From Xenophilus aerolatus (GTDB taxonomy: Bacteria > Pseudomonadota > Gammaproteobacteria > Burkholderiales > Burkholderiaceae_C): a stretch of DNA of 64,000 bases. The stretch's first letter is position 1; the number at the start of each line of letters is the position of its first letter. Below, piece after piece: positions 18,303-32,327 of the stretch. The notes beneath the pieces were generated by a model that was not told where the DNA came from, searched no databases, and worked only from the letters and a program-made list of their open reading frames with translations. The translations under genes and the position numbers were made by a program. The stretch covers positions 1-64,000 of the forward strand of contig JASCNX010000003.1 of NCBI GenBank assembly GCA_029968055.1, in the 5' to 3' direction.

Positions 18303-18605
18303 TTACTTCGCGCCGTCGTTGCCGCCCTTGGTGTAGGTGCTCATGTTGTAGTTGGCCTGCGCGTTCGTCATGGCCTTGGCCGAGGCGGCCTGTGCGGCAG
18401 TCACGCCTTCCTGGCCCGACTCGCCACCGACCTCCTTGGCCATGCCGGCGACCTGGCTTCGCACCGTCTGGCCGAAGAAGCTGAAGGCGGCGATCGCGGC
18501 GATGGCGATCAGCCCGAGGATGACGAGGTATTCAGTCATGCCCTGTCCCCGCGACTTGAGGCGGGACGAGGTGGTGTGGAAGGCGTTGCGGATGGTGCGG
18601 TTCAT
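18303..18605 (-). CDS. flp: Flp-family type IVb pilin
   Basis: A 100-residue prepilin. A basic leader ends at RG|QGMTEYLVILGLIAIAA, with the Flp signature Glu+5 and Tyr+6 followed by a hydrophobic helix with AIAAFSFFGQTV. The C-terminal half is Ala/Asn/Gly-rich, and the protein is longer than classical Flp pilins (50-80 residues). It is the first gene of the cluster and a good candidate for the major pilin. The start ATG at 18605 gives the most typical leader; an ATG at 18626 would lengthen it by seven residues. Confidence 0.82.
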   Translation of the reverse strand: MNRTIRNAFHTTSSRLKSRGQGMTEYLVILGLIAIAAIAAFSFFGQTVRSQVAGMAKEVGGESGQEGVTAAQAASAKAMTNAQANYNMSTYTKGGNDGAK

Positions 18606-18780
18606 GTGATGTCCTATCGATGTCAACGAAGTTCGGATTGCCGGCCTTCGCGGCCCTGCAACCAGTCATCACCCCTAGGCACGATCCGCTGACGAATGTG
18701 TCCCAAACGGGCTTCGGCGAAATCTATAGGGGCGATGTCCTACGGACACATACATGAATGCGAGCTGACTGATACGCAGC
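18606..18780 (-). promoter_or_regulatory. Upstream region of the flp/tad operon with spaced inverted repeat
   Basis: This segment separates the AraC terminator from flp and must carry the pilus promoter. ATGTGTCC at 18696-18703 and GGACACAT at 18744-18751 form a perfect 8-bp inverted repeat with a 40-base gap, and a further GTCC-tac-GGAC is nested at 18737-18747. On the minus strand a TATAGA-like -10 lies between the arms (18723-18728). The pattern resembles a regulator binding region; the regulator is unknown. Confidence 0.4.
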
Positions 18781-20694: not shown

Positions 20695-22722
20695 TCACAC
20701 CATCGCGCACCCGCAGCTCATCCGCCACCGCCCCCGGTCCCCGATGATGATCGGCGCCGTGCCCGGCCTGGCGCAGCATCCGCCGCCGTGCATTGCCGGC
20801 GCCTGCGCCACGTTGCCCTTGCGCCGCTGCTGGTAGCCGCCGTAGACGTTCACGGGCAGCCAGTCCGGCATCGGCTTCACGGCCGCCGGCGCCTGTGCCG
20901 CGAAAGCGCCGGCGCCGTGCACCACCTGGCCGCCGACCACCGTGAGCACCGCCGTGATGTCCTTGATGTCGTCCTCGGGCACGGCGAAGTAGTCGTCCGA
21001 CAGCAGCGCGAAGTCGGCCAGCCGGCCCGGCTGGATGCTGCCCTTGCGGGCCTCCTCGCCGGTGAGGGCGGCGCCTTCCACGGTCCACATGCGCAGCGCG
21101 TCTTCGCGGCTGACCAGGTTGCGCTCGGCGTTCAGGCGCGTGTCGCCCATCGTCTTGCCGGTGATCAGCCAGTGCAGCGACACCCAGGGGTTGTAGCTGG
21201 TGGCGCGGCTCGAATCGGTGCCGCAGGCCACGGGCAGGCCCATGGCGCGCATGCGGCCGATGGCCGGCGCGTCGGCCGCGGCCTCGCGGCCCCAGGTCTG
21301 CGCGAAGACCTCGCCATCGAGCGACATGCGGTTCTGGATCGCGATGCGCCCGCCCATGGCAGCCACGCGTTCCATCGAGCGCGGCGACAGCGTCTCGCAG
21401 TGGTCCAGCGCCCAGCGCACGTTCTTCAGCGGCACCTCGCGGTTGACCTTCTCCAGCACGTCGAGGATGCGGGTGGCGGTGCCGTCGTAGCTGGCATGCA
21501 TGCGGATCGGCCAGCCCTTGCCCACCAGGTAGGTCGCCACCTCGGTGAGCTTCGATTCCATGATGGCCGGTGCAGGTGCGACGCTCTTGCCGAAGTTGGC
21601 CGGGTCGGTCGCGGCCCAGAGGATGTACTCGCCCGCGCCCACCATGCGCAGCCAGTCGTCGCCCTGGCCCGGTGCGACCTTCTGCGACCAGGCCTGGTAG
21701 TCGGCCAGTTCCTGGCCCGGGCGCTGCGCGAACAGGTTGTACGAGATGCGCAGCGTCATCTTGCGCTCGGCCGCGAGTTGCGCGACGCCGGCGTAGTGCT
21801 CGGGGTAGTTCTGGCCACCCCCGCCGGCATCGACCACGCTGGTCAGGCCCAGGCGGTTCATCTCGCGCATGTACAGCTGGGTGGACAACGCCTGGTCGGC
21901 GTCGGGCAGCTTGGGCACGCGCGCGAACAGGGCGACCAGCCCGCCCAGGCTGGTGGTGTTGACCACCAGGCCGGTCGGGTTGCCGGCCGCGTCCTTCTCG
22001 AGCACGCTGCCGATCGGGTTGGGCGTGTCGCGGTTGAAGCCCAGCACGCGCAGGGCAGCGCGGTTGAGAAAAGCGCGGTCGTACAAGTTCATCACGAAGC
22101 AGGGCACCTCGCCGGTGGCGTCGTTGATCTCCTGCAGCGTGGGCAGCCGCTTCTCGCGGAACTGGTAGGGCGAGAAGCCGCCCACCACCTGCACCCAGTG
22201 CGGCGGCTGCGTGCGCCGTGCCTGGTCGCGCAGCATGAGCAGTGCGTCGGCCAGCGAGGGCACGCCGTCCCAGCGCAGCTCTTGCGTGTAGGTCAGGCCG
22301 CCGCGGATGAAATGGGCGTGCGAGTCGATGAGGCCCGGCACCACGGTACGGCCCTGCGCGTCGATCACGCGGGTGCGCGGGCCGATCCAGCGCTGCATGT
22401 CGGCGTCGCTGCCGACGGCCACGAAGTCGGTGCCGACGATGGCCAGCGCCTGGGCGCGCGGGCGCTTCGGGTCCAGCGTGGCGATGCGCGCGTTGCGCAG
22501 CACGGTGTCAGCCGGGCCGGTGGGCGCGGTGCTGGCGCAGCCGGCCAGGCCGAGGCCCGCCAGGCTGCCCGCGGCGGCCAGGCCGAGCGAGCTGCGCAGG
22601 AACTGCCGCCGCGGCGGCTCGGCGGCGTCGGGCTGTGGTGGATGCGCGCAGGCGGGGTCGCACCAGTGGCGGTAGCGGCCGGCTGCACCGGCTTCGGTGT
22701 CGGTAGATCCGAAGAGCTTCAT
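20695..22722 (-). CDS. Exported amidohydrolase (YtcJ-like), Tat lipoprotein
   Basis: A 675-residue amidohydrolase-superfamily enzyme. It has an unusual 37-residue N-terminal extension before a twin-arginine signal (RRQFLRSSLGLAAAG, from residue 38) that ends in a lipobox (LAGC, Cys62), so it is probably folded, exported by Tat and lipid-anchored. The metal site GLIDSHAHF (His135, His137) and YtcJ-type segments such as RMHASYDGT and ACGTDSSRA are present. The substrate is unknown; family members hydrolyse amide or ester bonds. It is the last gene of the catabolic operon, 16 bases after the Bug protein, with GGAGG as ribosome-binding site. The C-terminus has a short Cys-rich tail (GGGCCARPG, CGCAMV). 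Confidence 0.8.
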   Translation of the reverse strand: MKLFGSTDTEAGAAGRYRHWCDPACAHPPQPDAAEPPRRQFLRSSLGLAAAGSLAGLGLAGCASTAPTGPADTVLRNARIATLDPKRPRAQALAIVGTDFVAVGSDADMQRWIGPRTRVIDAQGRTVVPGLIDSHAHFIRGGLTYTQELRWDGVPSLADALLMLRDQARRTQPPHWVQVVGGFSPYQFREKRLPTLQEINDATGEVPCFVMNLYDRAFLNRAALRVLGFNRDTPNPIGSVLEKDAAGNPTGLVVNTTSLGGLVALFARVPKLPDADQALSTQLYMREMNRLGLTSVVDAGGGGQNYPEHYAGVAQLAAERKMTLRISYNLFAQRPGQELADYQAWSQKVAPGQGDDWLRMVGAGEYILWAATDPANFGKSVAPAPAIMESKLTEVATYLVGKGWPIRMHASYDGTATRILDVLEKVNREVPLKNVRWALDHCETLSPRSMERVAAMGGRIAIQNRMSLDGEVFAQTWGREAAADAPAIGRMRAMGLPVACGTDSSRATSYNPWVSLHWLITGKTMGDTRLNAERNLVSREDALRMWTVEGAALTGEEARKGSIQPGRLADFALLSDDYFAVPEDDIKDITAVLTVVGGQVVHGAGAFAAQAPAAVKPMPDWLPVNVYGGYQQRRKGNVAQAPAMHGGGCCARPGTAPIIIGDRGRWRMSCGCAMV

Positions 22723-22738
22723 GCGGACCTCCGGCGCG

Positions 22739-23731
22739 TCAGTCGACCTTGATGCCCGCGGCCTTCACCACGCGCGCGCCCTTGGCCGTCTCGTCGGCGA
22801 GGAAGGTGTCGAACTGCGCCGACGGCATGGTGAAGGGTTCGGCGCCCAGCTTGTCCAGCCGGTCCTTCAGGTCGGGCGCGGCCATGATCTTCGCGACCTC
22901 GGCCTGCACGCGCTCGATCACCGGCTTCGGCGTCTTCGCGGGCGCGAACAGGCCGACCCAGAACAGGTACTCGGAGCCGGGCACGCCGGCCTCCACGGTC
23001 GTCGGCAGATCGGGCTGCACGGAAGAGCGCTTGCCGGTGCCCACCGCCAGGGCCTTGAGCTTGCCGTCCTTGATCAGCGGCAGGGCCGACACCATCGGCG
23101 CGAAGAACCAGTCGATGCGCCCGCCCATCACCTCGGTCATGGCCTCGGGTGTGCCGCGGAAGGGCACGTGCTGCGCCTGGATGCCGGCCGCGAGGCGGAA
23201 CACCTCGGCGTTCATGTGCGTGGCCGAGCCGTTGCCGGCCGAGGCGTAGTTGAAGCCGCCCGGCTTGGCCTTGACCTGTGCCACCAGGTCCTTCACGTCG
23301 GTGAACTTGCCGGGCGAGGTGACCAGCACGTTGGGCAGGCTGGCCATGGGCGTGATGCCGGCGAAGTCCTTGAGCGTGTCGTACGAGAGGTTGGGGTAGA
23401 TCGAGGGGTTGACCAGGTGCCCCGCGGAATGCACGAGCAGCGTGTAGCCATCGGCCGGCGCCTTGGCCACCTGGGCCGCGCCCAGCGTGCCGCCGGCGCC
23501 GGGCTTGTTCTCCACCACCACGGTGGTCTGCAGCGCGGGGCCGAGGCGCTCGGCCACCAGCCGCGCAACGATGTCGGTGCCGCTGCCCGCGGTGAAGGGC
23601 ACGATGAGGCGGATCGACTGGCCGCGCGGCCAGTCGCCCTGCGCGTGCGCGCTGCCGATGGCGGCGAGGGCCGCGATCGTGCCCGCGACGAAGAGGCGGC
23701 GGCCGAGGCGGTGGTGGGGTGCGAATGTCAT
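22739..23731 (-). CDS. Bug-family periplasmic solute-binding protein
   Basis: A 330-residue tripartite-tricarboxylate-type (Bug) binding protein. A signal peptide (LFVAGTIAALAAIGSAHAQ) precedes the typical WPRGQSIRLIVPFTAGSGTD start and YDTLKDFAGITPMASLPNVL. These proteins bind carboxylates or aromatic acids in the periplasm. No TctA/TctB permease is nearby, as is usual for the expanded Bug family in Burkholderiales. It sits in the catabolic operon and is likely to bind its substrate. The start has GGAGA upstream. Confidence 0.9.
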   Translation of the reverse strand: MTFAPHHRLGRRLFVAGTIAALAAIGSAHAQGDWPRGQSIRLIVPFTAGSGTDIVARLVAERLGPALQTTVVVENKPGAGGTLGAAQVAKAPADGYTLLVHSAGHLVNPSIYPNLSYDTLKDFAGITPMASLPNVLVTSPGKFTDVKDLVAQVKAKPGGFNYASAGNGSATHMNAEVFRLAAGIQAQHVPFRGTPEAMTEVMGGRIDWFFAPMVSALPLIKDGKLKALAVGTGKRSSVQPDLPTTVEAGVPGSEYLFWVGLFAPAKTPKPVIERVQAEVAKIMAAPDLKDRLDKLGAEPFTMPSAQFDTFLADETAKGARVVKAAGIKVD

Positions 23732-23803
23732 GTGTTGTCTCCGTTGTGTTCTGTGGGTCGACTGGGGCAGGCGCTTTGTTCCGTTGTCTTGAACTTCAAC
23801 ACC

Positions 23804-23863
23804 CCGTTCGGGCTGAGCTTGTCGAAGCCCTGCGCGGCGCTTCGACAGGCTCAGCGTGAACGG
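23804..23863. repeat. Intergenic palindromic repeat (REP-like)
   Basis: Two 25-base arms (23804-23828 and 23839-23863) are complementary at 22 of 25 positions around a 10-base loop. The arm core CTGAGC-TGTCGAAG is a motif I recall from dispersed Burkholderiales intergenic repeats. It lies between the cupin gene and the Bug gene, so it may attenuate or stabilise the operon transcript between them. Confidence 0.6.
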
Positions 23864-23884
23864 ACTGAGGTGGGTACTGCCGAC

Positions 23885-24253
23885 TCAGATGCCCTTGGGC
23901 GCTGGCGGCTCGTGCGGCATCACCAGCGCGACCAGCACCGGCCGGTTCGTGCGGTTGACCAGCTGCCGCTTCTCGCCCGGCGCGAAGCGGCAGGAGTCGT
24001 AGGGGCCGAGCTCCTGCTCCTCGGTGTTGCCGTCGAGCTCGCCGATGACGGTGAGCCGGCCCTCGAGCACGAGGTACAGCTTCTCCATCGGCGAGCCATC
24101 GAGGCCGGTGTGGCCACCGGGCAGGATCTGGCTCATGCCCATCCACATCTGCTCGGACGGGCCGGCCTCCTTGCCCTGCAGGCGCAGGCAGCGCATGTCG
24201 AAATGGCGCGGTGCCTCGTAGGCCGGCGCCTGGTCGAATCGGGTGACGTGCAT
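23885..24253 (-). CDS. Cupin-domain protein
   Basis: A 122-residue single-domain cupin. The first motif is represented by ILPGGHTGL and KLYLVLEGRL and the second by RFAPGEKRQLVNRTNRP. Metal-site histidines are fewer than in classical dioxygenase cupins, so it may be a small isomerase, lyase or binding protein rather than an oxygenase. A strong AAGGAG ribosome-binding site lies seven bases before the ATG. It sits 19 bases after the MDR oxidoreductase gene in the catabolic operon. Confidence 0.8.
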   Translation of the reverse strand: MHVTRFDQAPAYEAPRHFDMRCLRLQGKEAGPSEQMWMGMSQILPGGHTGLDGSPMEKLYLVLEGRLTVIGELDGNTEEQELGPYDSCRFAPGEKRQLVNRTNRPVLVALVMPHEPPAPKGI

Positions 24254-24272
24254 GGGCAGTCTCCTTGCGCGC

Positions 24273-25271
24273 TCAGGGCCGCAGCACCACGCGGTCGGTG
24301 CTGCCCGAGAGCACCAGCCGGTAGGCGTCCAGCGCCTCGTCGAGCGTGAAGTGCCGCGCCACCGGAAAGGGCTTCAGGGTGCCGCGCTCGAAGCCCTCGC
24401 GCATCGCATCGAGCTGCGCGGTCGACGCGATGCAGTCCATGGCCAGCGAATCGATGCCCACATAGGTGTGCATGCCGCGGTAGAAGGCGAAGATGTCGAA
24501 GGGCACCGCACGGTCGTGCGTGGCGATGAAGATCTGCGTCGCCCCCTTCGCCATGGCCTTGTTGGCCGCCTCGAAGTAGGCGCTGCCCACGGTGTTGTAG
24601 ACCACGTCGGCGCCGCGCCCGCCCGTGAGTTCGAGCACCCGCGCTGCGACGTCCTCGCTCCGGGCGTCGACCACGTCGACCGGCGCGCAGGCGAAGCCCT
24701 CGAACGGCCCGGCGCGGCGTTGCACGGCGATCACCTTCGCGCCGGCCTGCGCCGCCAGCTGCACCGCCGCCTGGCCCACCTTGCCGTTGCCGCCCAGCAC
24801 CAGCACGGTCTGCCCGGCCTGCGGCATGCCGCTGCGTCGGAAGCCCTCGTAGGCGGTGACGAAGGGCACGCCGACGGCACCGGCCTCGTCCATCGAGATG
24901 TTGCGCGGCCGCTCGCGCAGCGCGGCCTCGGGCAGCACCAGGTAGCGGGCATGCGAGCCGTCGCGGGTGATGCCCACATCGCCGCCCGAGCCGTAGACCT
25001 CGCGCCCGATCCAGGCGCTCGGCCCCGCCACCACCGTGCCCGCGAAGTCGCGGCCCGGGGTGCGCGGCCACACGGCCTTGGGCATGATGCCCAGCGTGGC
25101 CTTCACGTCGCTCGGGTTCACCGCGGCGGCACCGACGCGCACCACGGCATGGCCGGCCGGCGCCTCGGGCTGCGGCTGTTGGGCGATGGCGAGCTGCAGC
25201 GACGCGAGGTCGGCCGCCTTCTGCTCGACGCGCAAGGCGCGTGCGGCGGTGCTGCTGGTGCCCGCGTTCAT
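24273..25271 (-). CDS. Zinc-less MDR-family quinone oxidoreductase
   Basis: A 332-residue medium-chain reductase/dehydrogenase. The GroES-like N-terminal half has AVNPSDVKATLG and PGRDFAGTV; the Rossmann half has VLVLGGNGKVGQAAVQLAAQ (about 150-169) for NADPH. The Cys ligands of a structural zinc lobe are absent, as in the QOR type. It probably reduces an enone or quinone-like catabolic intermediate. The ATG at 25271 overlaps the BKACE stop by four bases. The longer open frame upstream is read-through. Confidence 0.85.
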   Translation of the reverse strand: MNAGTSSTAARALRVEQKAADLASLQLAIAQQPQPEAPAGHAVVRVGAAAVNPSDVKATLGIMPKAVWPRTPGRDFAGTVVAGPSAWIGREVYGSGGDVGITRDGSHARYLVLPEAALRERPRNISMDEAGAVGVPFVTAYEGFRRSGMPQAGQTVLVLGGNGKVGQAAVQLAAQAGAKVIAVQRRAGPFEGFACAPVDVVDARSEDVAARVLELTGGRGADVVYNTVGSAYFEAANKAMAKGATQIFIATHDRAVPFDIFAFYRGMHTYVGIDSLAMDCIASTAQLDAMREGFERGTLKPFPVARHFTLDEALDAYRLVLSGSTDRVVLRP

Positions 25272-26155
25272 CGCGCACCTCCGGCCGGCAGGCCCAGCAT
25301 CTGGCGCGCCTCGGCGGCGCTGGCCACCTGGCCGCCCAGGCTGCGGATGATGTCGCGCGCCTTGGCCACCAGCTGTGCGTTGCTCTCGGCCAGCACGCCG
25401 TGCGAGAGGTAGATGTTGTCTTCCATGCCCACGCGCACGTGCCCGCCCATCAGCCAGGCCTGCGCCACGATCGGGAACTCCATGCGGCCGATGCCGAAGG
25501 CGCTCCAGAAGGCGCCGTGCGGCAGCATGTTGCGGGCGTACAGCAGCGTCTCCGGCGTGGGCGCGAAGCCGTACTTCACGCCGAGCACGAAGGTCCACAT
25601 GCCGGGCCCGTCGAGCGTGCCGTCGGCGATCAGGTCCAGCGCCAGATGGATGTCGCCGGAGTCGAAGATCTCCAGCTCGGGCTTCACGCCCGCTTCGCGG
25701 ATCACCTTGGCCATGCGGCGCACGTTCTTCGGCGTGTTCATCACCACGTCGGGCCCGCTGTTCATGGTGTTGAGGTCCAGCGAGCAGACGTCGGGTCGGA
25801 TGAGCGCGATGTGTTCCACGCGCCGCTCGGGCGGCAGCAGCGAGGTGCCGGGCGCGTAGACCTTGGGGTCGTCCTCGCTCGGGATGAAGCGGCCGCCGGG
25901 CCCGGTGGTGAGGTTCACGATCAGCTCGCGGTCGTGCCGGCGGATGCGCTCGACCACCTCGCGGTACAGCTCGACCTCCATCGAGGGCTTGCCGGTGCCG
26001 GGGTCGCGCACGTGGATGTGCACCTGGCCCGCGCCGGCCTCGGCCGCGGCCAGGCACTCGTCGGCGATCTGCGTGGGGGTGATGGGCAGGTGCGGGGTCT
26101 GCTCGGGCTTGACCAGGTTGCCGGTGACCGCGCAGGTGATGAGTGTCTTGTTCAC
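25268..26155 (-). CDS. BKACE family beta-keto acid cleavage enzyme
   Basis: A 295-residue enzyme of the family whose founding member cleaves 3-keto-5-aminohexanoate. Members condense a beta-keto acid with acetyl-CoA and release acetoacetate plus a new acyl-CoA. Zinc ligands are visible in HIHVRDP (His46, His48) and in GMEDNIYL (Glu near 230), and the ITCAVTG start is typical. The start is GTG at 26155, sharing bases with the SDR stop (GTGA). The specificity is open; context suggests it acts on a beta-keto acid made by the SDR or dioxygenase route. Confidence 0.9.
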   Translation of the reverse strand: MNKTLITCAVTGNLVKPEQTPHLPITPTQIADECLAAAEAGAGQVHIHVRDPGTGKPSMEVELYREVVERIRRHDRELIVNLTTGPGGRFIPSEDDPKVYAPGTSLLPPERRVEHIALIRPDVCSLDLNTMNSGPDVVMNTPKNVRRMAKVIREAGVKPELEIFDSGDIHLALDLIADGTLDGPGMWTFVLGVKYGFAPTPETLLYARNMLPHGAFWSAFGIGRMEFPIVAQAWLMGGHVRVGMEDNIYLSHGVLAESNAQLVAKARDIIRSLGGQVASAAEARQMLGLPAGGAR

Positions 26156-26916
26156 AGGTGCCGTCCTCCATCCACCACGATGCGCGTGCCCGTCACGAAG
26201 CGCAGCGTGGTCGCCAGCGCCTCGACCGTCGCCGCCACGTCCTGCGGCAGGCCGATGCGGCCCAGCGGCGTGGTGCTGGCCATCTTGGTCTTGAAGTCCT
26301 CGCCGCGGCCCGGCACGAAGCCCGACTCGACGGCGCCCGGCGAGACCGACACCACGCGCACCTGCGGCGCCAGCACCTTGGCCAGCGCATCGCCCACCAC
26401 GTCCAGCCCGGCCTTGGCGGCGACGTAAGCGAGGTTGCTGCCCACGCCGGTGAAGCCGGCGATGGACGACACGTTCACGATGAGCCCGTCGCCACTGGCC
26501 TTGAGCAGCGGCGCGAAGGCGCGGATGGTGGCGAACACGCCGCGGAAGTTGGCCTGCAGCAGCTCGTCGATCAGCGCGTCGGTGAGCCCGTCGAGGTCGG
26601 CCGCGGGAACGGGCTTCGTGTGGCCGGCGCTGTTGACCAGGATGTCGCAGCGGCCGTGCGTGGCCTTCACCGCCTCGGCCGCGGCCCGGAGGCTCGCGCT
26701 GTCGACGATGTCGGCACGCAGGGCGGTGTGGCGCTGGCCGTGGGCCGAGGGCAGGGCGGCGGCGCGGGCCTGCGCATCGTCGCCCTTGCGGTGCAGCAGC
26801 ACGCAGGTGGCGCCCAGCGCGGCCAGGCGCTCGGCGCTGGCCCAGCCGATGGCGCCCAGCCCGCCGGTGATGACGGCCACCTGGCCGTCCAGGCGTGAAA
26901 CGGGGTCGAAGCTCAT
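26152..26916 (-). CDS. SDR-family oxidoreductase
   Basis: A 254-residue classical short-chain dehydrogenase. Cofactor motif TGGLGAIG at 17-24, NSAGH in place of NNAG, catalytic Ser in NVSSIAG and Tyr/Lys in YVAAK. C-terminal VVDGGRHL is typical. It probably interconverts an alcohol and a ketone within the catabolic operon, producing the beta-keto acid for BKACE (inference). The ATG at 26916 gives the normal SDR N-terminus; no strong ribosome-binding site is seen. Confidence 0.88.
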   Translation of the reverse strand: MSFDPVSRLDGQVAVITGGLGAIGWASAERLAALGATCVLLHRKGDDAQARAAALPSAHGQRHTALRADIVDSASLRAAAEAVKATHGRCDILVNSAGHTKPVPAADLDGLTDALIDELLQANFRGVFATIRAFAPLLKASGDGLIVNVSSIAGFTGVGSNLAYVAAKAGLDVVGDALAKVLAPQVRVVSVSPGAVESGFVPGRGEDFKTKMASTTPLGRIGLPQDVAATVEALATTLRFVTGTRIVVDGGRHL

Positions 26917-26956
26917 GGTCTTGCAGTCATGGAAAGAAGTTGGAAAGGGGAAGGCA

Positions 26957-27823
26957 TCAGGGAATGGGTGGCCGGGGGAACTTGGTCTCGCCCGGCTCGA
27001 GCCGGAAGTCGTAGGCCAGCGTGGCGCTCTGCCCATCGGGCTGCATCGCATAGCGGCCGATGAGCCGGCGCGTGACGCCGAAGGTCGGGTCGCTCTCGAG
27101 GTTCTCGTCGTCGTCGGCGTAGACCTGGCTGACCAGCACCTTGAAGCCCGGCTTGCTCACCATGAAGTGCAGGTGGGCCGGGCGGTTCGGGTGGCGGCGC
27201 TGCGCCTTGAGCAGCACGCCGCAGGGCCCGTCCACCGGCACCGGGTAGCCGGCCGGCCGCACGCTGCGGAAGTGGTAGCGGCCCTCGGCATCGGTGCGGA
27301 AGCGCCCGCGCAGGTTCATGTTCTCCTGCGTCGGATCCTGGTTCTCGTACAGGCCCACCGGCGAGGCCTGCCACACGTCGACCACGGCGCCGGCCAGCGG
27401 CTGGCCGGCCGCGTCGCGCACCGTGCCGGACACGAAGAGCGGCACGCCCGGCGTGCCCGAGCGGGCGATGGAGTCGCCGCAGGCGCAGTCGGGCGCATTG
27501 GCGCGCCAGAAGGGGCCGAGCAGGGCGGACGGCGACTCGCCCTCCGGGTCCTGGTTGTTCTGCAGCGCCACCACCGTGGAGATGCCAAGGATGTCGGCCG
27601 CCAGCACCACCTCGTTCTTCTTCTCGCCGGTGGCCTGGCCCAGCGCCACGAAGAAGTCGAGCGCGTGCTCGAACTCGTCCTCGCTCAGCTTCACTTCCTG
27701 CACGAAGGCGTGCAGGTGGCGGGTGAGCGCGGCCATCACCTCGCGCAGCCGTGGGTCGGGGGTGCGCTCCATCGCGTCGAGCGCGATGCCGAGCACCGAA
27801 TCGGGGGTGGTCACGATGTTCAC
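26957..27823 (-). CDS. Intradiol ring-cleavage dioxygenase
   Basis: A 288-residue protein of the catechol/hydroxyquinol 1,2-dioxygenase family (Fe(III), non-haem). The N-terminal dimerisation domain (about 1-95) precedes the beta-sandwich. Expected iron ligands are Tyr in VGLYENQDP, Tyr in GRYHFRSVRP or nearby, and two His in HPNRPAHLHF. It should open a catechol or hydroxyquinol-type ring to a muconate or maleylacetate. The start is probably GTG at 27823. It heads the catabolic operon and is divergent from the LacI regulator across an operator-like palindrome. Confidence 0.88.
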   Translation of the reverse strand: MNIVTTPDSVLGIALDAMERTPDPRLREVMAALTRHLHAFVQEVKLSEDEFEHALDFFVALGQATGEKKNEVVLAADILGISTVVALQNNQDPEGESPSALLGPFWRANAPDCACGDSIARSGTPGVPLFVSGTVRDAAGQPLAGAVVDVWQASPVGLYENQDPTQENMNLRGRFRTDAEGRYHFRSVRPAGYPVPVDGPCGVLLKAQRRHPNRPAHLHFMVSKPGFKVLVSQVYADDDENLESDPTFGVTRRLIGRYAMQPDGQSATLAYDFRLEPGETKFPRPPIP

Positions 27824-27841: not shown

Positions 27842-27855
27842 TGCAAACGTTTGCG
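27842..27855. promoter_or_regulatory. LacI-type operator palindrome
   Basis: GCAAACGTTTGC at 27843-27854 is a perfect 12-bp palindrome with the central CG typical of LacI/GalR operators. It lies 19 bases upstream of the dioxygenase start and about 97 bases upstream of the lacI-type gene. A second, imperfect copy (CAAACGGTTG at 27936-27945) lies just before the regulator start and could mediate autoregulation. Confidence 0.65.
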
Positions 27856-27950
27856 CATTATTTGCGCGCGGCAGCCGACGAGGCAAGCCCGGCGATGGCA
27901 GAATTGTTCCTCTTGACAAAACGGTCGATGTTGGACAAACGGTTGCACAC

Positions 27951-28979
27951 ATGAAGCCTGCCAAGGCCCCCAAGGTCACCATCCGCGACGTCGCCACGGC
28001 GAGCGGGGTGCACTTCTCCACCGTGTCGCGCGCGCTCGACCCGGCGCGGCGCAAGCGCATCAGCAAGGAGGTGCTCGAGCTGGTGGAGGAGACGGCGCGC
28101 CGCCTGGGCTACCAGCCCAACCGCGCCGCCTCGGCGCTGCGCACCGGGCGCACCCACACCATCGGCGTGCTGGTGCCGGACATCACCAACCCGGTGTTCC
28201 CGCCCATCCTGCAGGGCATCGAGGCCAGCGCCGCGGCGCGCGGCTACTTCGTCTTCGTGGCCAACGTGGGCGACCCGCAGCTCGCGCGGCCCATCCTGGC
28301 GCGCATGCAGGCGCAGCAGATCGACGGGCTGGTGATGGCGATCGCGCTGCGCGACGACCCGCTGATCGACTTCGTGCGCGACAACGGCCTGCATGCGGTG
28401 ATGGTCAACCGCGCCGACGAGAGCGGCCGCCTGCCCGCGGCGGTGAGCGACGACCGGCTGGCGATGAAGCTCGCCGTCGACCATCTCGCTGCCCTGGGCC
28501 ATCGCCGCATCGCGCACCTGGCCGGCCCGCAGAACGTGCCCACCGGCGTGGGCCGCCGCCAGGGCGTGGAGCAGGCGATGCACGACCATCGCATGAAGCC
28601 TCCGCGTGTCGTCGAATGCGAGAGCTACAGCCGCGAGGCCGGCCAGCAGGCCATGCGCACGCTGCTGGCCAGCGGGCCGCGCCCCGAAGCCGTGGTGTGC
28701 TGCAACGACCTGGTGGCGCTGGGCGCCTACGACGTGCTGCGCGAGGCCGGCCTGCGCGTGCCAGAGGACATCTCGGTCACCGGCCACAACGACATGCCGC
28801 TGGTCGACATGGTCGATCCGCCGCTCACCACCATCCGCCTGCCGCACCGCGAGCTGGGCTGGCGCGCGGCCGAGATGCTGTTCGACGAGATCGAGGGCAA
28901 GTCGCTCTCGGCCTCCACCGTGGTGCTGCGGCCGGAGCTGGTGGTGCGCGCCTCGACGGCGGCACGCAACGCGTCATGA
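27951..28979 (+). CDS. LacI-family transcriptional regulator
   Basis: A 342-residue repressor. The N-terminal helix-turn-helix is TIRDVATASGVHFSTVSRAL (about 10-29) with the hinge helix NRAASALRTG, followed by the periplasmic-binding-protein-like sensor (IGVLVPDITNPVFPPILQGI; C-terminal PPLTTIRLPHRELG). It is divergent from the dioxygenase operon, with an operator-like palindrome between, so it most likely represses that operon until an inducer binds. The open frame extends far upstream antisense to the dioxygenase gene; the ATG at 27951 is the sensible start. Confidence 0.92.
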   Translation: MKPAKAPKVTIRDVATASGVHFSTVSRALDPARRKRISKEVLELVEETARRLGYQPNRAASALRTGRTHTIGVLVPDITNPVFPPILQGIEASAAARGYFVFVANVGDPQLARPILARMQAQQIDGLVMAIALRDDPLIDFVRDNGLHAVMVNRADESGRLPAAVSDDRLAMKLAVDHLAALGHRRIAHLAGPQNVPTGVGRRQGVEQAMHDHRMKPPRVVECESYSREAGQQAMRTLLASGPRPEAVVCCNDLVALGAYDVLREAGLRVPEDISVTGHNDMPLVDMVDPPLTTIRLPHRELGWRAAEMLFDEIEGKSLSASTVVLRPELVVRASTAARNAS

Positions 28980-29050: not shown

Positions 29051-30178
29051 TCAGGTGCGGATGCGGCCGTCGCCCGTGATCATCGACAGCTCCACGAACT
29101 TCGAGGCCACATGGTTCTTCGGCGAGAAGGACACCTCGAAGCCGCCGAACTGCTGGCGGTCGATGCTCTCCAGTCCGGCAATCAGGCCGTCGCGCGAGGG
29201 CTTGCCGTTGCCGCGCCTGAGCCCCTCCACCAGCACGCGTGCGGCCAGGTAGCCCTCGATGCTGGAGAAGTTCGCCTGCACCTTGCCGCCGGCCTTGCGC
29301 GCGGCGTCGTTGAACTCGCGCGTGATGGCGTTGGCGCTGGTGTAGGGCGAGGGCATCACCTGCGAGACGACGATGCCGGCGCCGTCCTTGCCCAGCTCGT
29401 CGGCCAGCGCCTGCGTGCCGACGAAGGACACGTTGTAGAAGGTGCCGCCGTAGCCCGCCCTGCGCGCCTCCCGGATGAAGGCGGCGCAGCTCTTGTACGC
29501 GCTGACCTGCACGATCGCGTCGGGCTTCGAAGCCACCAGCGTCCTGACCGCGGCGGCGACGTCGACCGAGTTGCGCTCCACCGTGGCGGCGCCGACCGGC
29601 TTGAGCTGGTGCTGCGCCAGCGCCAGCGTGACGCCGTCGAGCCCGGCCTTGCCATAGGCGTCGTTCTGGTGGAAGACCGCGATCTTCTTCAGGCCGAGGT
29701 GATGCAGCTGGTTCACGATCAGCGCCGTCTCGTCGTTGTACGAGGCGCGCAGGTGGAACACGTTCCGGTTGAAGGGCTCGCGCAGGCTCATGGCGCCCGT
29801 GAAGGGCGCGACGAAGGGCACCTTGTCCTTCACCGCCAAGGGCAGCGCCGCCATGCTGGTGGGCGTGCCGATGTAGCCGAAGAGCGCGAACACGTCCTCC
29901 TCGATCAGTTTCTGCGTGTTGGCGACGGTGCGCTCGGGCTCGTAGCCGTCGTCCAGCTGCTTGATGACCACCTTGCGGGCGCCCGGCTGGGCGCCGTACT
30001 GGTCGAGGAAGAGCTTGGCGCCCTCGTAGAACTGGATGCCCAGCTGCGCGGCCGGCCCGGTGAAGGGCGCGGACTGGCCCAGCACGATCGGTGCGTCGGC
30101 CTGCGCGCGCGCCATGCCGGCAAAGCCGCCGAGCACGGCCGCGCCGGCGCCCAGGGAAAAATGTCTGCGCTTGATCAT
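29051..30178 (-). CDS. ABC transporter substrate-binding protein (branched-chain amino acid type)
   Basis: A 375-residue periplasmic binding protein of the Peripla_BP_6 (LivK-like) family. The signal peptide begins IKRRHFSLGAGAAVLGGFAG and ends MARAQ. The mature start IVLGQSAPFTGPAAQLG and the FALFGYIGTPTSMAALPL segment are typical. No Liv permease or ATPase genes are beside it, so it is an orphan or works with a distant transporter. The ATG at 30178 has a GAGGGGG ribosome-binding site; an ATG 18 bases upstream is less likely. Divergent from the molybdopterin gene. Confidence 0.88.
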   Translation of the reverse strand: MIKRRHFSLGAGAAVLGGFAGMARAQADAPIVLGQSAPFTGPAAQLGIQFYEGAKLFLDQYGAQPGARKVVIKQLDDGYEPERTVANTQKLIEEDVFALFGYIGTPTSMAALPLAVKDKVPFVAPFTGAMSLREPFNRNVFHLRASYNDETALIVNQLHHLGLKKIAVFHQNDAYGKAGLDGVTLALAQHQLKPVGAATVERNSVDVAAAVRTLVASKPDAIVQVSAYKSCAAFIREARRAGYGGTFYNVSFVGTQALADELGKDGAGIVVSQVMPSPYTSANAITREFNDAARKAGGKVQANFSSIEGYLAARVLVEGLRRGNGKPSRDGLIAGLESIDRQQFGGFEVSFSPKNHVASKFVELSMITGDGRIRT

Positions 30179-30275
30179 CGGAAAACCCCCTCGCACGCCG
30201 CTCGCGTGCTCCCACTAGACTCGACCCGACCGCCCTGTCGTGGGCCTGCCCTGTCCTTTTCTTGATGTTGTTGTC

Positions 30276-32327
30276 ATGACTCCCCTGTCCACTGCCGTCG
30301 TGCGCGGGGCCTGTCCCCACGATTGCCCCGACACCTGCGCCCTCGTCACCACCGTGCAGGACGGCCGGGCCGTCAAGCTGCAGGGCAATCCGGAGCACCG
30401 CCACACGGCCGGCGTGCTGTGCACCAAGGTGTCGCGCTACATCGAGCGCAACGACCACCCCGAGCGGCTCACCCGGCCGATGCGCCGCGTCGGGCCCAAG
30501 GGCAGCGGGCGCTTCGAGCCGGTGACCTGGGACGAAGCCCTCGACGACATCGCCGCACGGCTGAATCGACTCAAAAGTAACAAGTCGGAAACGATTTTGC
30601 CCTACAGCTATGCCGGCACGATGGGCCTGGTGCAGGGCGAATCGATGGACCGTCGTTTTTTCCACCAACTCGGCGCGTCCTTCCTCGACCGGACCATCTG
30701 CTCCACCGCCGGAGGTGATGCTTTGGTTTACACCCTCGGCGGGAAGGTGGGCATGCGGGTGGAGTTCTTCGCCGAGGCGAAGCTCATCCTCATCTGGGGC
30801 AGCAACTCCATCGGGAGCAACCTGCATTTCTGGCGCCACGCCCAGGCCGCCAAGCGGGCCGGCGCCCGCCTGGTGTGCATCGACCCGCGCAAGACCGAGA
30901 CCGCCGACAAGTGCGACGAGCACATCGCCCTGCTGCCCGGCACCGACGGCGCGCTGGCCCTGGCGCTGATGCACGAGCTCATCGCGCACGACTGGCTGGA
31001 CCACGACTACATCCGCGAGCACACGCTCGGCTGGGACCGCCTGCGCGAACGCGCGCTCCAATGGCCGCCCGAGCGCGCCGCCGCCGTGTGCGGCGTGCCG
31101 GTGCAGCAGATCCGTGACCTGGCGCATGACTACGGCACGACGAAGCCGGCCGCCATCCGCCTGAACTACGGCATGCAGCGCGTGCGCGGCGGCGGCAACG
31201 CGGCCCGCGCCGTCGCCTGCCTGCCGGCGCTGGTGGGGGCGTGGCGCGATCGCGCGGGTGGGCTGCTGCTCAGCGCCTCGGGGCAGTTCCCGGTCGACCG
31301 CGCGGCATTGCAGCGGCCCGAGCTGCTGGCCGGCCGGCGCCCGCGCACCATCAACATGGTGCGCATCGGCGATGCACTGCTGGGCGACGCCGACGCGCTC
31401 TCGGGCGGGCCGCCGATCGAGGCGGTCATCGTCTACAACAGCAACCCGCTGGCGGTGGCGCCCGAGTCGGCCAAGGTGGCGGCCGGCTTCGCACGCGAGG
31501 ACCTCTTCACCATCGTGCTGGAGCAGTTCCAGACCGACACCGCCGACTACGCCGACTACCTGCTGCCGGCCACCACGCAGCTGGAGCACTGGGACATTCA
31601 CACCAGCTACGGCCACACCGACGTGCTGCTCAACCGCCCGGCCGTCGCGCCGCGCGGCGAGGCGCGCAGCAACGCCTGGGTGTTCCGCGAGCTGGCCCGG
31701 CGCATGGGCTTCGACGACCCGTGCTTCCAGGACGACGACGAGGCCCTGTGCCGCCAGGCCTTCGCCCCCGGCGCCATCGACTGGGCCGCGCTCGAGTCGC
31801 AGGGTTTCGCCAGCGTGCCCTTGCCCGAGGCGCCCTATGCCCACGGCGGCTTCCCCACGCCGTCGGGGCGGGTCGAGTTCTTCAGCGAGCGGCTGGCGGC
31901 GCAGGGGCTGGACGGCGTGCCCGAGCACTTGCCCAACCACGAGCCCGCGGGCAGCTCGCCCGATTACCCTCTGGCGATGATCTCGCCGCCGGCGCGCAAC
32001 TTCCTCAACAGCAGCTTCGTCAACGTCAAGAGCCTGCGCGCCATCGAGGGCGAGCCGCTGCTGGAGATCCATGCCGACGACGCCGCCGCGCGCGGCATCG
32101 CCGACGGCGCGATGGTGCGCGTCTTCAACGGCCGCGGCGAGCACCGCTGCCGCGCCGAGGTCTCGCGCCGCGCACGGCCGGGCGTGGTGCACGGGCTGGG
32201 CATCTGGTGGCGCAAGCTGGGCGTGGACGGCACCAACGTCAACCAGCTGACCAGCCAGCGCCTCACCGACCTGGGCCGTGGGCCGACCTTCTACGACTGC
32301 CTGGTGCAGGTGGAGGCGCTCGCCTGA
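30276..32327 (+). CDS. Molybdopterin-dependent oxidoreductase with 4Fe-4S site
   Basis: A 683-residue BisC/FdhF-like molybdoenzyme. The N-terminal 4Fe-4S motif is Cys13-x3-Cys17-x3-Cys21-x27-Cys49 (GACPHDCPDTCALV, then VLCTK). Molybdopterin-binding motifs include ILIWGSNSIGSNLHFWRH, IDPRKTETADKCDEHI and the C-terminal molydop-binding domain (LLEIHADDAAARGI). A Cys or Ser near TICSTAGG could contact molybdenum. No Tat signal, so cytoplasmic. No electron-transfer subunit is adjacent. It could be a formate dehydrogenase-like or another oxidoreductase; the substrate is undetermined. It runs 5 bases into the start of the aminopeptidase gene. Confidence 0.85.
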   Translation: MTPLSTAVVRGACPHDCPDTCALVTTVQDGRAVKLQGNPEHRHTAGVLCTKVSRYIERNDHPERLTRPMRRVGPKGSGRFEPVTWDEALDDIAARLNRLKSNKSETILPYSYAGTMGLVQGESMDRRFFHQLGASFLDRTICSTAGGDALVYTLGGKVGMRVEFFAEAKLILIWGSNSIGSNLHFWRHAQAAKRAGARLVCIDPRKTETADKCDEHIALLPGTDGALALALMHELIAHDWLDHDYIREHTLGWDRLRERALQWPPERAAAVCGVPVQQIRDLAHDYGTTKPAAIRLNYGMQRVRGGGNAARAVACLPALVGAWRDRAGGLLLSASGQFPVDRAALQRPELLAGRRPRTINMVRIGDALLGDADALSGGPPIEAVIVYNSNPLAVAPESAKVAAGFAREDLFTIVLEQFQTDTADYADYLLPATTQLEHWDIHTSYGHTDVLLNRPAVAPRGEARSNAWVFRELARRMGFDDPCFQDDDEALCRQAFAPGAIDWAALESQGFASVPLPEAPYAHGGFPTPSGRVEFFSERLAAQGLDGVPEHLPNHEPAGSSPDYPLAMISPPARNFLNSSFVNVKSLRAIEGEPLLEIHADDAAARGIADGAMVRVFNGRGEHRCRAEVSRRARPGVVHGLGIWWRKLGVDGTNVNQLTSQRLTDLGRGPTFYDCLVQVEALA

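Follow-up and report, generated by a model that had tools for sequence, protein, structure and literature searches.

A LacI-associated gene module pairing a putative hydroxyquinol-type intradiol dioxygenase with a beta-keto acid cleavage enzyme in Xenophilus aerolatus

Gene order and control region

The 64,000-nucleotide stretch of Xenophilus aerolatus DNA analysed here (the window; contig JASCNX010000003.1, positions 1 to 64,000) contains seven consecutive minus-strand open reading frames, running from 27823 to 20695, that encode an intradiol dioxygenase (DIO), a short-chain dehydrogenase/reductase (SDR), a beta-keto acid cleavage enzyme (BKACE), a medium-chain dehydrogenase/reductase (MDR), a small cupin, a Bug/TctC periplasmic binding protein and an amidohydrolase, with a LacI-family regulator divergent from them. 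An original prediction, made from the sequence alone, had described this arrangement; the reading frames lie where it placed them, and Pfam bears out the families. The several 4-base overlaps that it also reported come down to two, SDR/BKACE and BKACE/MDR, the remaining neighbours being separated by 40 (DIO–SDR), 19 (MDR–cupin), 153 (cupin–Bug) and 16 nt (Bug–amidohydrolase). Together the seven genes would constitute one catabolic operon under LacI repression.

Gene families were assigned with Pfam and NCBIfam profiles. DIO (26957–27823, minus strand, as are all seven) begins with GTG and is identified as hydroxyquinol-1,2-dioxygenase-like by PF04444 and PF00775, its PDB matches and its iron ligands. 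The SDR (26152–26916; adh_short_C2, 152.7 bits) has the Ser-Tyr-Lys residues, with YVAAK at position 164, and is followed by BKACE (25268–26155), which scores 333.8 bits against PF05853 (cut-off 24.8) and has 9zsc as its nearest PDB entry (4.2e-104). The MDR (24273–25271) is quinone/enoyl-reductase-like by its ADH_N and ADH_zinc_N domains, its PDB matches and the motifs NPSDVK and PGRDFAG. It matches both TIGR02824 and TIGR02823 under their cut-offs, and the usual zinc-ligand motifs were not seen in its sequence. The cupin (23885–24253) reaches 27.1 bits against Cupin_2, just under the cut-off of 27.2, and the classical HxH metal motif was not seen in it. The Bug/TctC protein (22739–23731) scores 235.4 bits against TctC, and the amidohydrolase (20695–22722) 360.8 bits against Amidohydro_3. 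The N terminus of the latter, RRQFLRSS...LAGC, resembles that of a lipoprotein exported by the twin-arginine translocation (Tat) pathway, the Tat signal profile scoring 20.8 bits, just under its cut-off of 22.7. The regulator (27951–28979, plus strand) carries LacI and Peripla_BP_3 domains.

A LacI-type operator-like palindrome, TGCAAACGTTTGC(G), occupies 27842–27855 near the DIO start. It lies just after the -10-like hexamer of a sigma-70-like promoter, TTGCCT-18-AATAAT (27857–27886, minus strand; one found against 0.1 expected, by consensus match only), a placement as expected for repression. When further sites that might widen the regulon were sought genome-wide, none was found at up to one mismatch, and this palindrome is thus the sole match. 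A second operator-like site, TGCAACCGTTTG, stands immediately ahead of the lacI start (27936–27947). The cores of both are invariant or nearly so across 11 aligned loci, which were chosen because a site had already been found in them. Against 2.3 terminator-like sites expected, four were found, and just one of them, inside the DIO gene, is on the operon strand. The 153-nt gap between cupin and Bug contains a palindromic hairpin (23812–23855), a REP-like (repetitive extragenic palindromic) element composed of GGGCTTCGACAAGCTCAGC plus an inverted partner; a 161-nt stretch folds there with a z of -4.4. The hairpin could attenuate read-through. The corresponding gap is only 42 nt in a close relative (L033; cupin 98%, Bug 97%), too short for the palindrome, which may therefore be a recent insertion.

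Conservation of the module and the types of its enzymes

Related loci were drawn from a scan of named genomes, as the best 80 of 478 loci found with two dioxygenase peptides, and alphaproteobacterial loci were added from searches for MDR relatives and within the order of one match, and from plasmid records. Variovorax dominates the scan, and its counts are no census. Nine near-copies (L033–L041) and L003 were dropped as duplicates, and L209–L211 stand outside the count. The resulting set comprises 115 deduplicated loci that match DIO at 250 bits or above, 14 of which, with less than 6 kb downstream, were set aside. A locus was counted as having the module if BKACE, or both SDR and MDR, lay downstream of DIO on its strand; of the 101 loci that remain, 87 have it and 14 do not. 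SDR occurs in all 87, BKACE and MDR in 86 each, the cupin in 84 and Bug in 76, and 74 have a LacI relative. The single counts for SDR, BKACE and MDR are partly fixed by the definition; a fairer figure is the 82 loci in which DIO, SDR, BKACE, MDR and cupin stand together on one strand. Chance adjacency of the genes is rejected by this conservation across loci.

The union of dioxygenase and BKACE in one module, central to the original prediction, is thereby upheld, and the neighbourhood search in other Burkholderiales that it called for recovers the same gene set, its order kept there and in alphaproteobacteria. Within the host genus, DIO is found in 9 of 14 other genomes at 93–98% identity, with the same gene set as far as the contig or stretch extends, and L044 and L045, which represent two further genera of the family, keep the order DIO-SDR-BKACE-MDR-cupin-Bug at 50–66% identity. 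The core recurs in Variovorax, Pseudacidovorax, Pigmentiphaga, Noviherbaspirillum, Limnohabitans, Cupriavidus, Bosea and Shinella, and in Skermanella with a displaced cupin; some loci are called alphaproteobacterial because they branch with Bosea and Shinella in the DIO tree. It resides on chromosomes and on plasmids, including a predicted conjugative plasmid of Bosea vaviloviae that has the full seven-gene order, amidohydrolase included, with a divergent LacI; its amidohydrolase matches a PRK08204-type relative, not that of the window. The operator pattern occurs upstream of DIO in 40 of the 87 module loci, compared with 0 of 86 upstream of BKACE. A broken module was seen in a Rhizobacter metagenome-assembled genome (MAG; L129, 10001–11792), comprising DIO, 54 residues of SDR and then an Amidohydro_2 remnant.

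DIO has the iron ligands Tyr159, Tyr193, His217 and His219, and both of its intradiol domains score over cut-off. Its best PDB matches (5.5e-63 to 2.4e-54) are PnpC (3n9t), which we take to be a hydroxyquinol dioxygenase, 8r2x, named as a 6-chlorohydroxyquinol dioxygenase, 8r2v, an unnamed intradiol protein, and the hydroxyquinol dioxygenases 1tmx and 8r2w. The hydroxyquinol-type entries score 216–188 bits, whereas the best of the catechol dioxygenases reaches 142 (2e-40). Leu80, Asp83, Gly109-Pro110-Phe111 and Arg218 of 1tmx, presumably pocket positions, are matched by L74, D77, G103-P104-F105 and R214; three other positions that we assume to belong to the pocket differ. Intradiol cleavage yields muconate from catechol, an alpha-keto acid from a 1,2,3-triol and a beta-keto acid, maleylacetate, in one step from a 1,2,4-triol. 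No cycloisomerase, isomerase or enol-lactone hydrolase gene was found among the seven with Pfam and NCBIfam. The pairing of DIO with BKACE without a cycloisomerase fits, therefore, an enzyme of the hydroxyquinol type that acts on a 1,2,4-triol and gives the beta-keto acid directly.

On a 70-row dioxygenase tree the module label needs 4 changes, compared with 19.6 when shuffled. The 4 arise from 14 non-module rows nested inside the module group, from L106, whose row is the wrong (second) dioxygenase of that locus mislabelled as module, and from the broken locus L129. The 14 nested dioxygenases form a clade that lacks BKACE. Genes for an HpaH-like hydratase and an HpaI-like aldolase, which an alpha-keto product would need, adjoin the DIO relative in 7 of 20 non-module loci (L188, L189, L191, L192, L193, L209 and L210; 14 of the 20 are in the tree), and L209 and L210 have folate C1 genes as well. 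The association suggests that these relatives may belong to an intradiol route that starts from a methoxylated or 1,2,3-trihydroxy aromatic and leads to an alpha-keto acid.

BKACE, the single match of its kind in its own genome, aligns H46, H48, R241, E245 and D246 with 2y7d, residues that, from work on Kce, we take to be the zinc-binding His-x-His and the Arg/Glu/Asp active site. Leu14 replaces a Glu of 2y7d that is presumably the acidic residue binding the amine.

The original prediction held that the usual muconate and maleylacetate enzymes are absent. None is in the operon, and no maleylacetate reductase (MAR) gene lies within it, but a MAR-like gene with its own Bug is present elsewhere on the same contig (G000:C3:191286; L143). 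The contig also holds a pcaIJ/scoAB-type pair beside a thiolase-like gene (C3:359409; L151), one subunit being named by family and pcaI and pcaF by eye, and the host has a second hydroxyquinol-type dioxygenase (C5:345598; L144) that groups with a MAR-linked clade. MAR-like matches stand near the module in 3 of the 87 loci: in Noviherbaspirillum denitrificans (L125), in Cupriavidus campinensis (L207; 69% to that of the host) and in L174, where the match is cut by the edge of the stretch. The iron-dependent dehydrogenase upstream of the module in L125 has 3jzd, 3hl0, 3w5s and 3iv7 as its best PDB matches (2.8e-95 to 2.6e-74; next 2e-31); 3hl0 and 3w5s are named maleylacetate reductase, 3jzd and 3iv7 only dehydrogenases. 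A 66% BKACE on an Agrobacterium plasmid (L206) has a hydroxyquinol-type intradiol dioxygenase and an annotated MAR at a distance of about 4 kb. In the host genus a MAR match below 1e-90 accompanies the module in 10 of 10 genomes, compared with 2 of 5 genomes without the module, weak statistics given that the genomes are related; in five of the ten (G001, G007, G008, G010, G011) a search at E 0.001 matched no dioxygenase besides DIO. Wider searches covered 49 of the 80 loci for MAR and 32 genomes for CoA-transferase, both sets including the broken locus L129 and L118, which has no BKACE. MAR was matched at 1e-40 in 36 of 49 genomes, and a pcaJ/scoB-type CoA-transferase scores over cut-off in 32 of 32.

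A candidate route and its alternatives

From these observations we infer a substrate, an order of steps and a set of products. DIO would cleave a 1,2,4-trihydroxybenzene between its vicinal hydroxyls, the substrate being hydroxyquinol or, more likely, a ring-substituted hydroxyquinol, and its product would be a maleylacetate-type acid, already a beta-keto acid. Reduction of the C=C bond, by the MDR or by a MAR encoded elsewhere, would give a 3-oxoadipate-type acid, from which BKACE would transfer a C2 unit to acetyl-CoA to yield acetoacetate and succinyl-CoA or its substituted homologue; the acetoacetate would then be activated by a CoA-transferase of the succinyl-CoA:3-oxoacid (SCOT) type. 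The Bug protein might capture a periplasmic precursor, perhaps released by the Tat-exported amidohydrolase. That the operon is LacI-repressed and devoted to cleavage of a trihydroxybenzene ring ending in BKACE is, in our judgement, evenly poised between right and wrong. The maleylacetate-type acid does provide a possible intermediate common to the dioxygenase and BKACE, a link on which the original prediction turned. Because the host has a parallel route and BKACE misses curated cut-offs, the true substrate is probably a substituted hydroxyquinol, with plain hydroxyquinol as the fallback.

Several parts of this route have precedents. The canonical hydroxyquinol pathway proceeds through hydroxyquinol 1,2-dioxygenase, MAR and PcaIJ/PcaF. 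It shares with the present operon the dioxygenase type and the expected maleylacetate intermediate; here, however, MAR is not in the operon, an MDR and a BKACE are found instead, and DIO falls outside the MAR-linked clade. In Methylobacterium pca clusters that lack pcaIJF, two papers propose that BKACE (DUF849/kce) ends an intradiol route by converting beta-ketoadipate and acetyl-CoA to succinyl-CoA and acetoacetate, in place of PcaIJ/PcaF (PMC8963497; PMC12379598), and one figure legend shows KCE as the final step there (PMC12379598). The likeness to the present operon is an intradiol route ended by BKACE. The Methylobacterium gene is flanked by pcaG and pcaB within a protocatechuate operon, whereas the operon here encodes a single-subunit hydroxyquinol-type DIO, has no cycloisomerase and adds SDR, MDR and cupin. 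The catBCD-COG3246 regulon of Ralstonia eutropha H16 likewise places BKACE beside genes of an intradiol route, there for catechol, and BKACE is proposed to cleave beta-ketoadipate (PMC6449761). Its operon and regulator differ, and the BKACE of the window scores 177.5 bits against the 350-bit cut-off of the 3-oxoadipate model NF053568, which, to judge from its name, describes the H16 protein. An SDR adjoins BKACE in the deoxyribonate pathway also, where a beta-keto acid is cleaved with acetyl-CoA (PMC6365646); the substrate there is a sugar acid, no ring is cleaved and the SDR makes the beta-keto acid. The pairing of BKACE with a gamma-butyrobetaine dioxygenase is unrelated (PMC12421898).

The coupling of an intradiol route to BKACE, which the original prediction took to be new, has thus already been proposed in Methylobacterium and R. 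eutropha H16. No description of this gene set was found in the literature searched, most subscription papers lying outside its scope. If the proposed route is right, the BKACE ending, already proposed for the protocatechuate and catechol branches, would reach the trihydroxybenzene branch as well, and dioxygenase, MDR and BKACE genes whose annotation now stops at the family level would gain a function. A natural aromatic or cyclic compound without known bacterial breakdown may be the substrate, and the unique operator and small operon make the proposal readily testable.

A number of observations count against the proposed route. The DIOs of the module fall outside the clade formed by hydroxyquinol-type, partly MAR-linked dioxygenases (branch 99/94), although similarity and pocket residues still point to hydroxyquinol 1,2-dioxygenase despite that position, and no hydroxylase that would produce the triol is encoded in the operon. 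BKACE is under the cut-off of all four NCBIfam models that it matches, among them the 3-oxoadipate model cited above and the KAH model (260.4 bits, cut-off 382). The second dioxygenase, MAR-like gene and pcaIJ-type set of the host would make a plain hydroxyquinol route redundant and the module a parallel one. MAR is not obligatory, since 13 of 49 genomes, that of the broken locus L129 included, have no match at 1e-40; five of the 13 are isolates to judge by their titles (Variovorax CF079, Variovorax JS1663, V. soli, Phenylobacterium Root700 and Limnohabitans Jir61). The MDR is kept beside MAR in L125, L174 and L207, and so need not replace it; as a plain substitute for MAR it thus faces this coexistence on one side and the 13 MAR-negative genomes on the other. 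Individual loci depart from the pattern: in one MAG (L118, 6100–8757) DIO, SDR and MDR are present and BKACE is missing from its place between the latter two, and L208 has a module without MDR. A Roseomonas plasmid (L211, 8085–9870) has a BKACE (64%) and an SDR (52%), divergent, with no DIO match in the stretch, which speaks against a BKACE tied to DIO alone; its neighbours are two TctC genes, amidohydrolase-annotated genes and a quinone-oxidoreductase-like MDR. Finally, 47 of the 87 module loci gave no match to the operator pattern, including many from Variovorax and, apart from Skermanella, those of alphaproteobacteria.

Some of these points favour a different aromatic polyol as the substrate, such as a methoxy-, carboxy-, alkyl- or amino-substituted triol, giving a branched or substituted beta-keto acid with SDR and cupin steps of its own. 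We regard this as somewhat unlikely, though it would account for the parallel set in the same genome, the separation of DIO from the MAR-linked clade and a BKACE under the cut-offs of known equivalogs. It also draws on the extra partners of relatives, namely glutathione S-transferase (GST; 4 of the 87 module loci), a gamma-carbonic-anhydrase-like protein (4), a RidA-like protein (2, by eye) and the triple amidohydrolases of L186 and L187; these partners vary between lineages, however, and indicate no single substrate.

The order of the genes, BKACE and then MDR, would suit direct cleavage instead: BKACE would cut the unsaturated maleylacetate-type acid to maleyl- or fumaryl-CoA and acetoacetate, and the MDR, as an enoyl-CoA reductase, would form succinyl-CoA, with neither MAR nor 3-oxoadipate involved. 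The sub-cut-off matches of the MDR include the acrylyl-CoA reductase family TIGR02823 (6e-20), and the MAR-negative genomes, with their five isolates, would be explained. Such a scheme is nonetheless unlikely, given MAR near the module in three loci and in most of the genomes searched, and BKACE activity on unsaturated acids of this kind is not known to us. An extended form of it is more doubtful still, namely a widespread and undescribed route in which a substituted hydroxyquinol is opened to a maleylacetate-type acid that BKACE cleaves directly, the MDR saturating the resulting enoyl-CoA without MAR or PcaIJ/PcaF, while the exported amidohydrolase releases a non-aromatic or conjugated precursor that, once imported, is turned into the triol by SDR and cupin. 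That BKACE, with the SDR, and the dioxygenase belong to separate pathways and merely share a locus is highly improbable, for although BKACE relatives occur without this dioxygenase in L206 (beside another intradiol dioxygenase) and L211, the five core genes stay on one strand in 82 of 87 module loci, on chromosomes and plasmids alike.

Amidohydrolases and flanking genes

An amidohydrolase-superfamily gene is present in 47 of the 87 module loci, in 36 of them within 900 nt after Bug. The Amidohydro_3 type of the window, with its Tat-lipoprotein-like start, has 35–39% relatives in many Variovorax. Limnohabitans and related Burkholderiales have an Amidohydro_2 protein in its place, also with a Tat-lipoprotein-like start, whose best PDB match is an unnamed metal hydrolase (2f6k), followed by 5-carboxyvanillate, uracil-5-carboxylate and 2-amino-3-carboxymuconate semialdehyde (ACMS) decarboxylases; in Ramlibacter and Phenylobacterium the gene is an Amidohydro_1 of the PRK08204 kind, over cut-off. 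In L186 (4878–9006) and L187, three tandem amidohydrolases, 40–44% like the PRK08204-type protein of L112, directly precede the dioxygenase, and an additional one with a Tat-like start follows Bug. The repeated linkage to hydrolases of exported appearance supports a periplasmic preparation step, but does not name the bond that would be cut. The amide-linked substrate of the original prediction becomes a guess, because relatives carry other amidohydrolase subfamilies or none was found.

The GST gene precedes DIO in four alphaproteobacterial loci, and the one that was scanned is maiA-like, under that cut-off. L171 and L205 (Shinella sp. HZN7) were seen to combine GST, DIO-SDR-BKACE-MDR-cupin and a downstream alpha/beta hydrolase; L171 has in addition a two-subunit Mo hydroxylase, and Shinella sp. 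HZN7 acyl-CoA dehydrogenase and electron transfer flavoprotein (ETF) genes. PobA flanks the module in L113 and L121, an IorB-type Mo enzyme in L114, L117, L131 and L171, and LIV, TRAP, CUT2-like or NMT1-type transporters elsewhere; the GST of L199 and L200, RidA and the CUT2-like and NMT1-type transporters of L174, L176 and L186 were named by eye or through a scanned relative. Identification of the substrate from such neighbours gave no single answer, since the flanks vary with lineage. Aromatisation of a cyclitol is only suggestive, hinted at by LacI, a CUT2-like transporter and SDR, and by the sugar-isomerase and Gfo/Idh neighbours in L206.

In the window itself, lacI is adjoined by a gene for a branched-chain-type ABC binding protein (29051–30196) that is 93–95% identical in the close relatives L033–L036 and not found in L037–L041; beyond it lies a molybdopterin oxidoreductase, named by eye (30240–32327). 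On the other side of the operon, a small minus-strand gene (18303–18626) encodes a protein that by eye resembles a Flp/Tad-type pilin.

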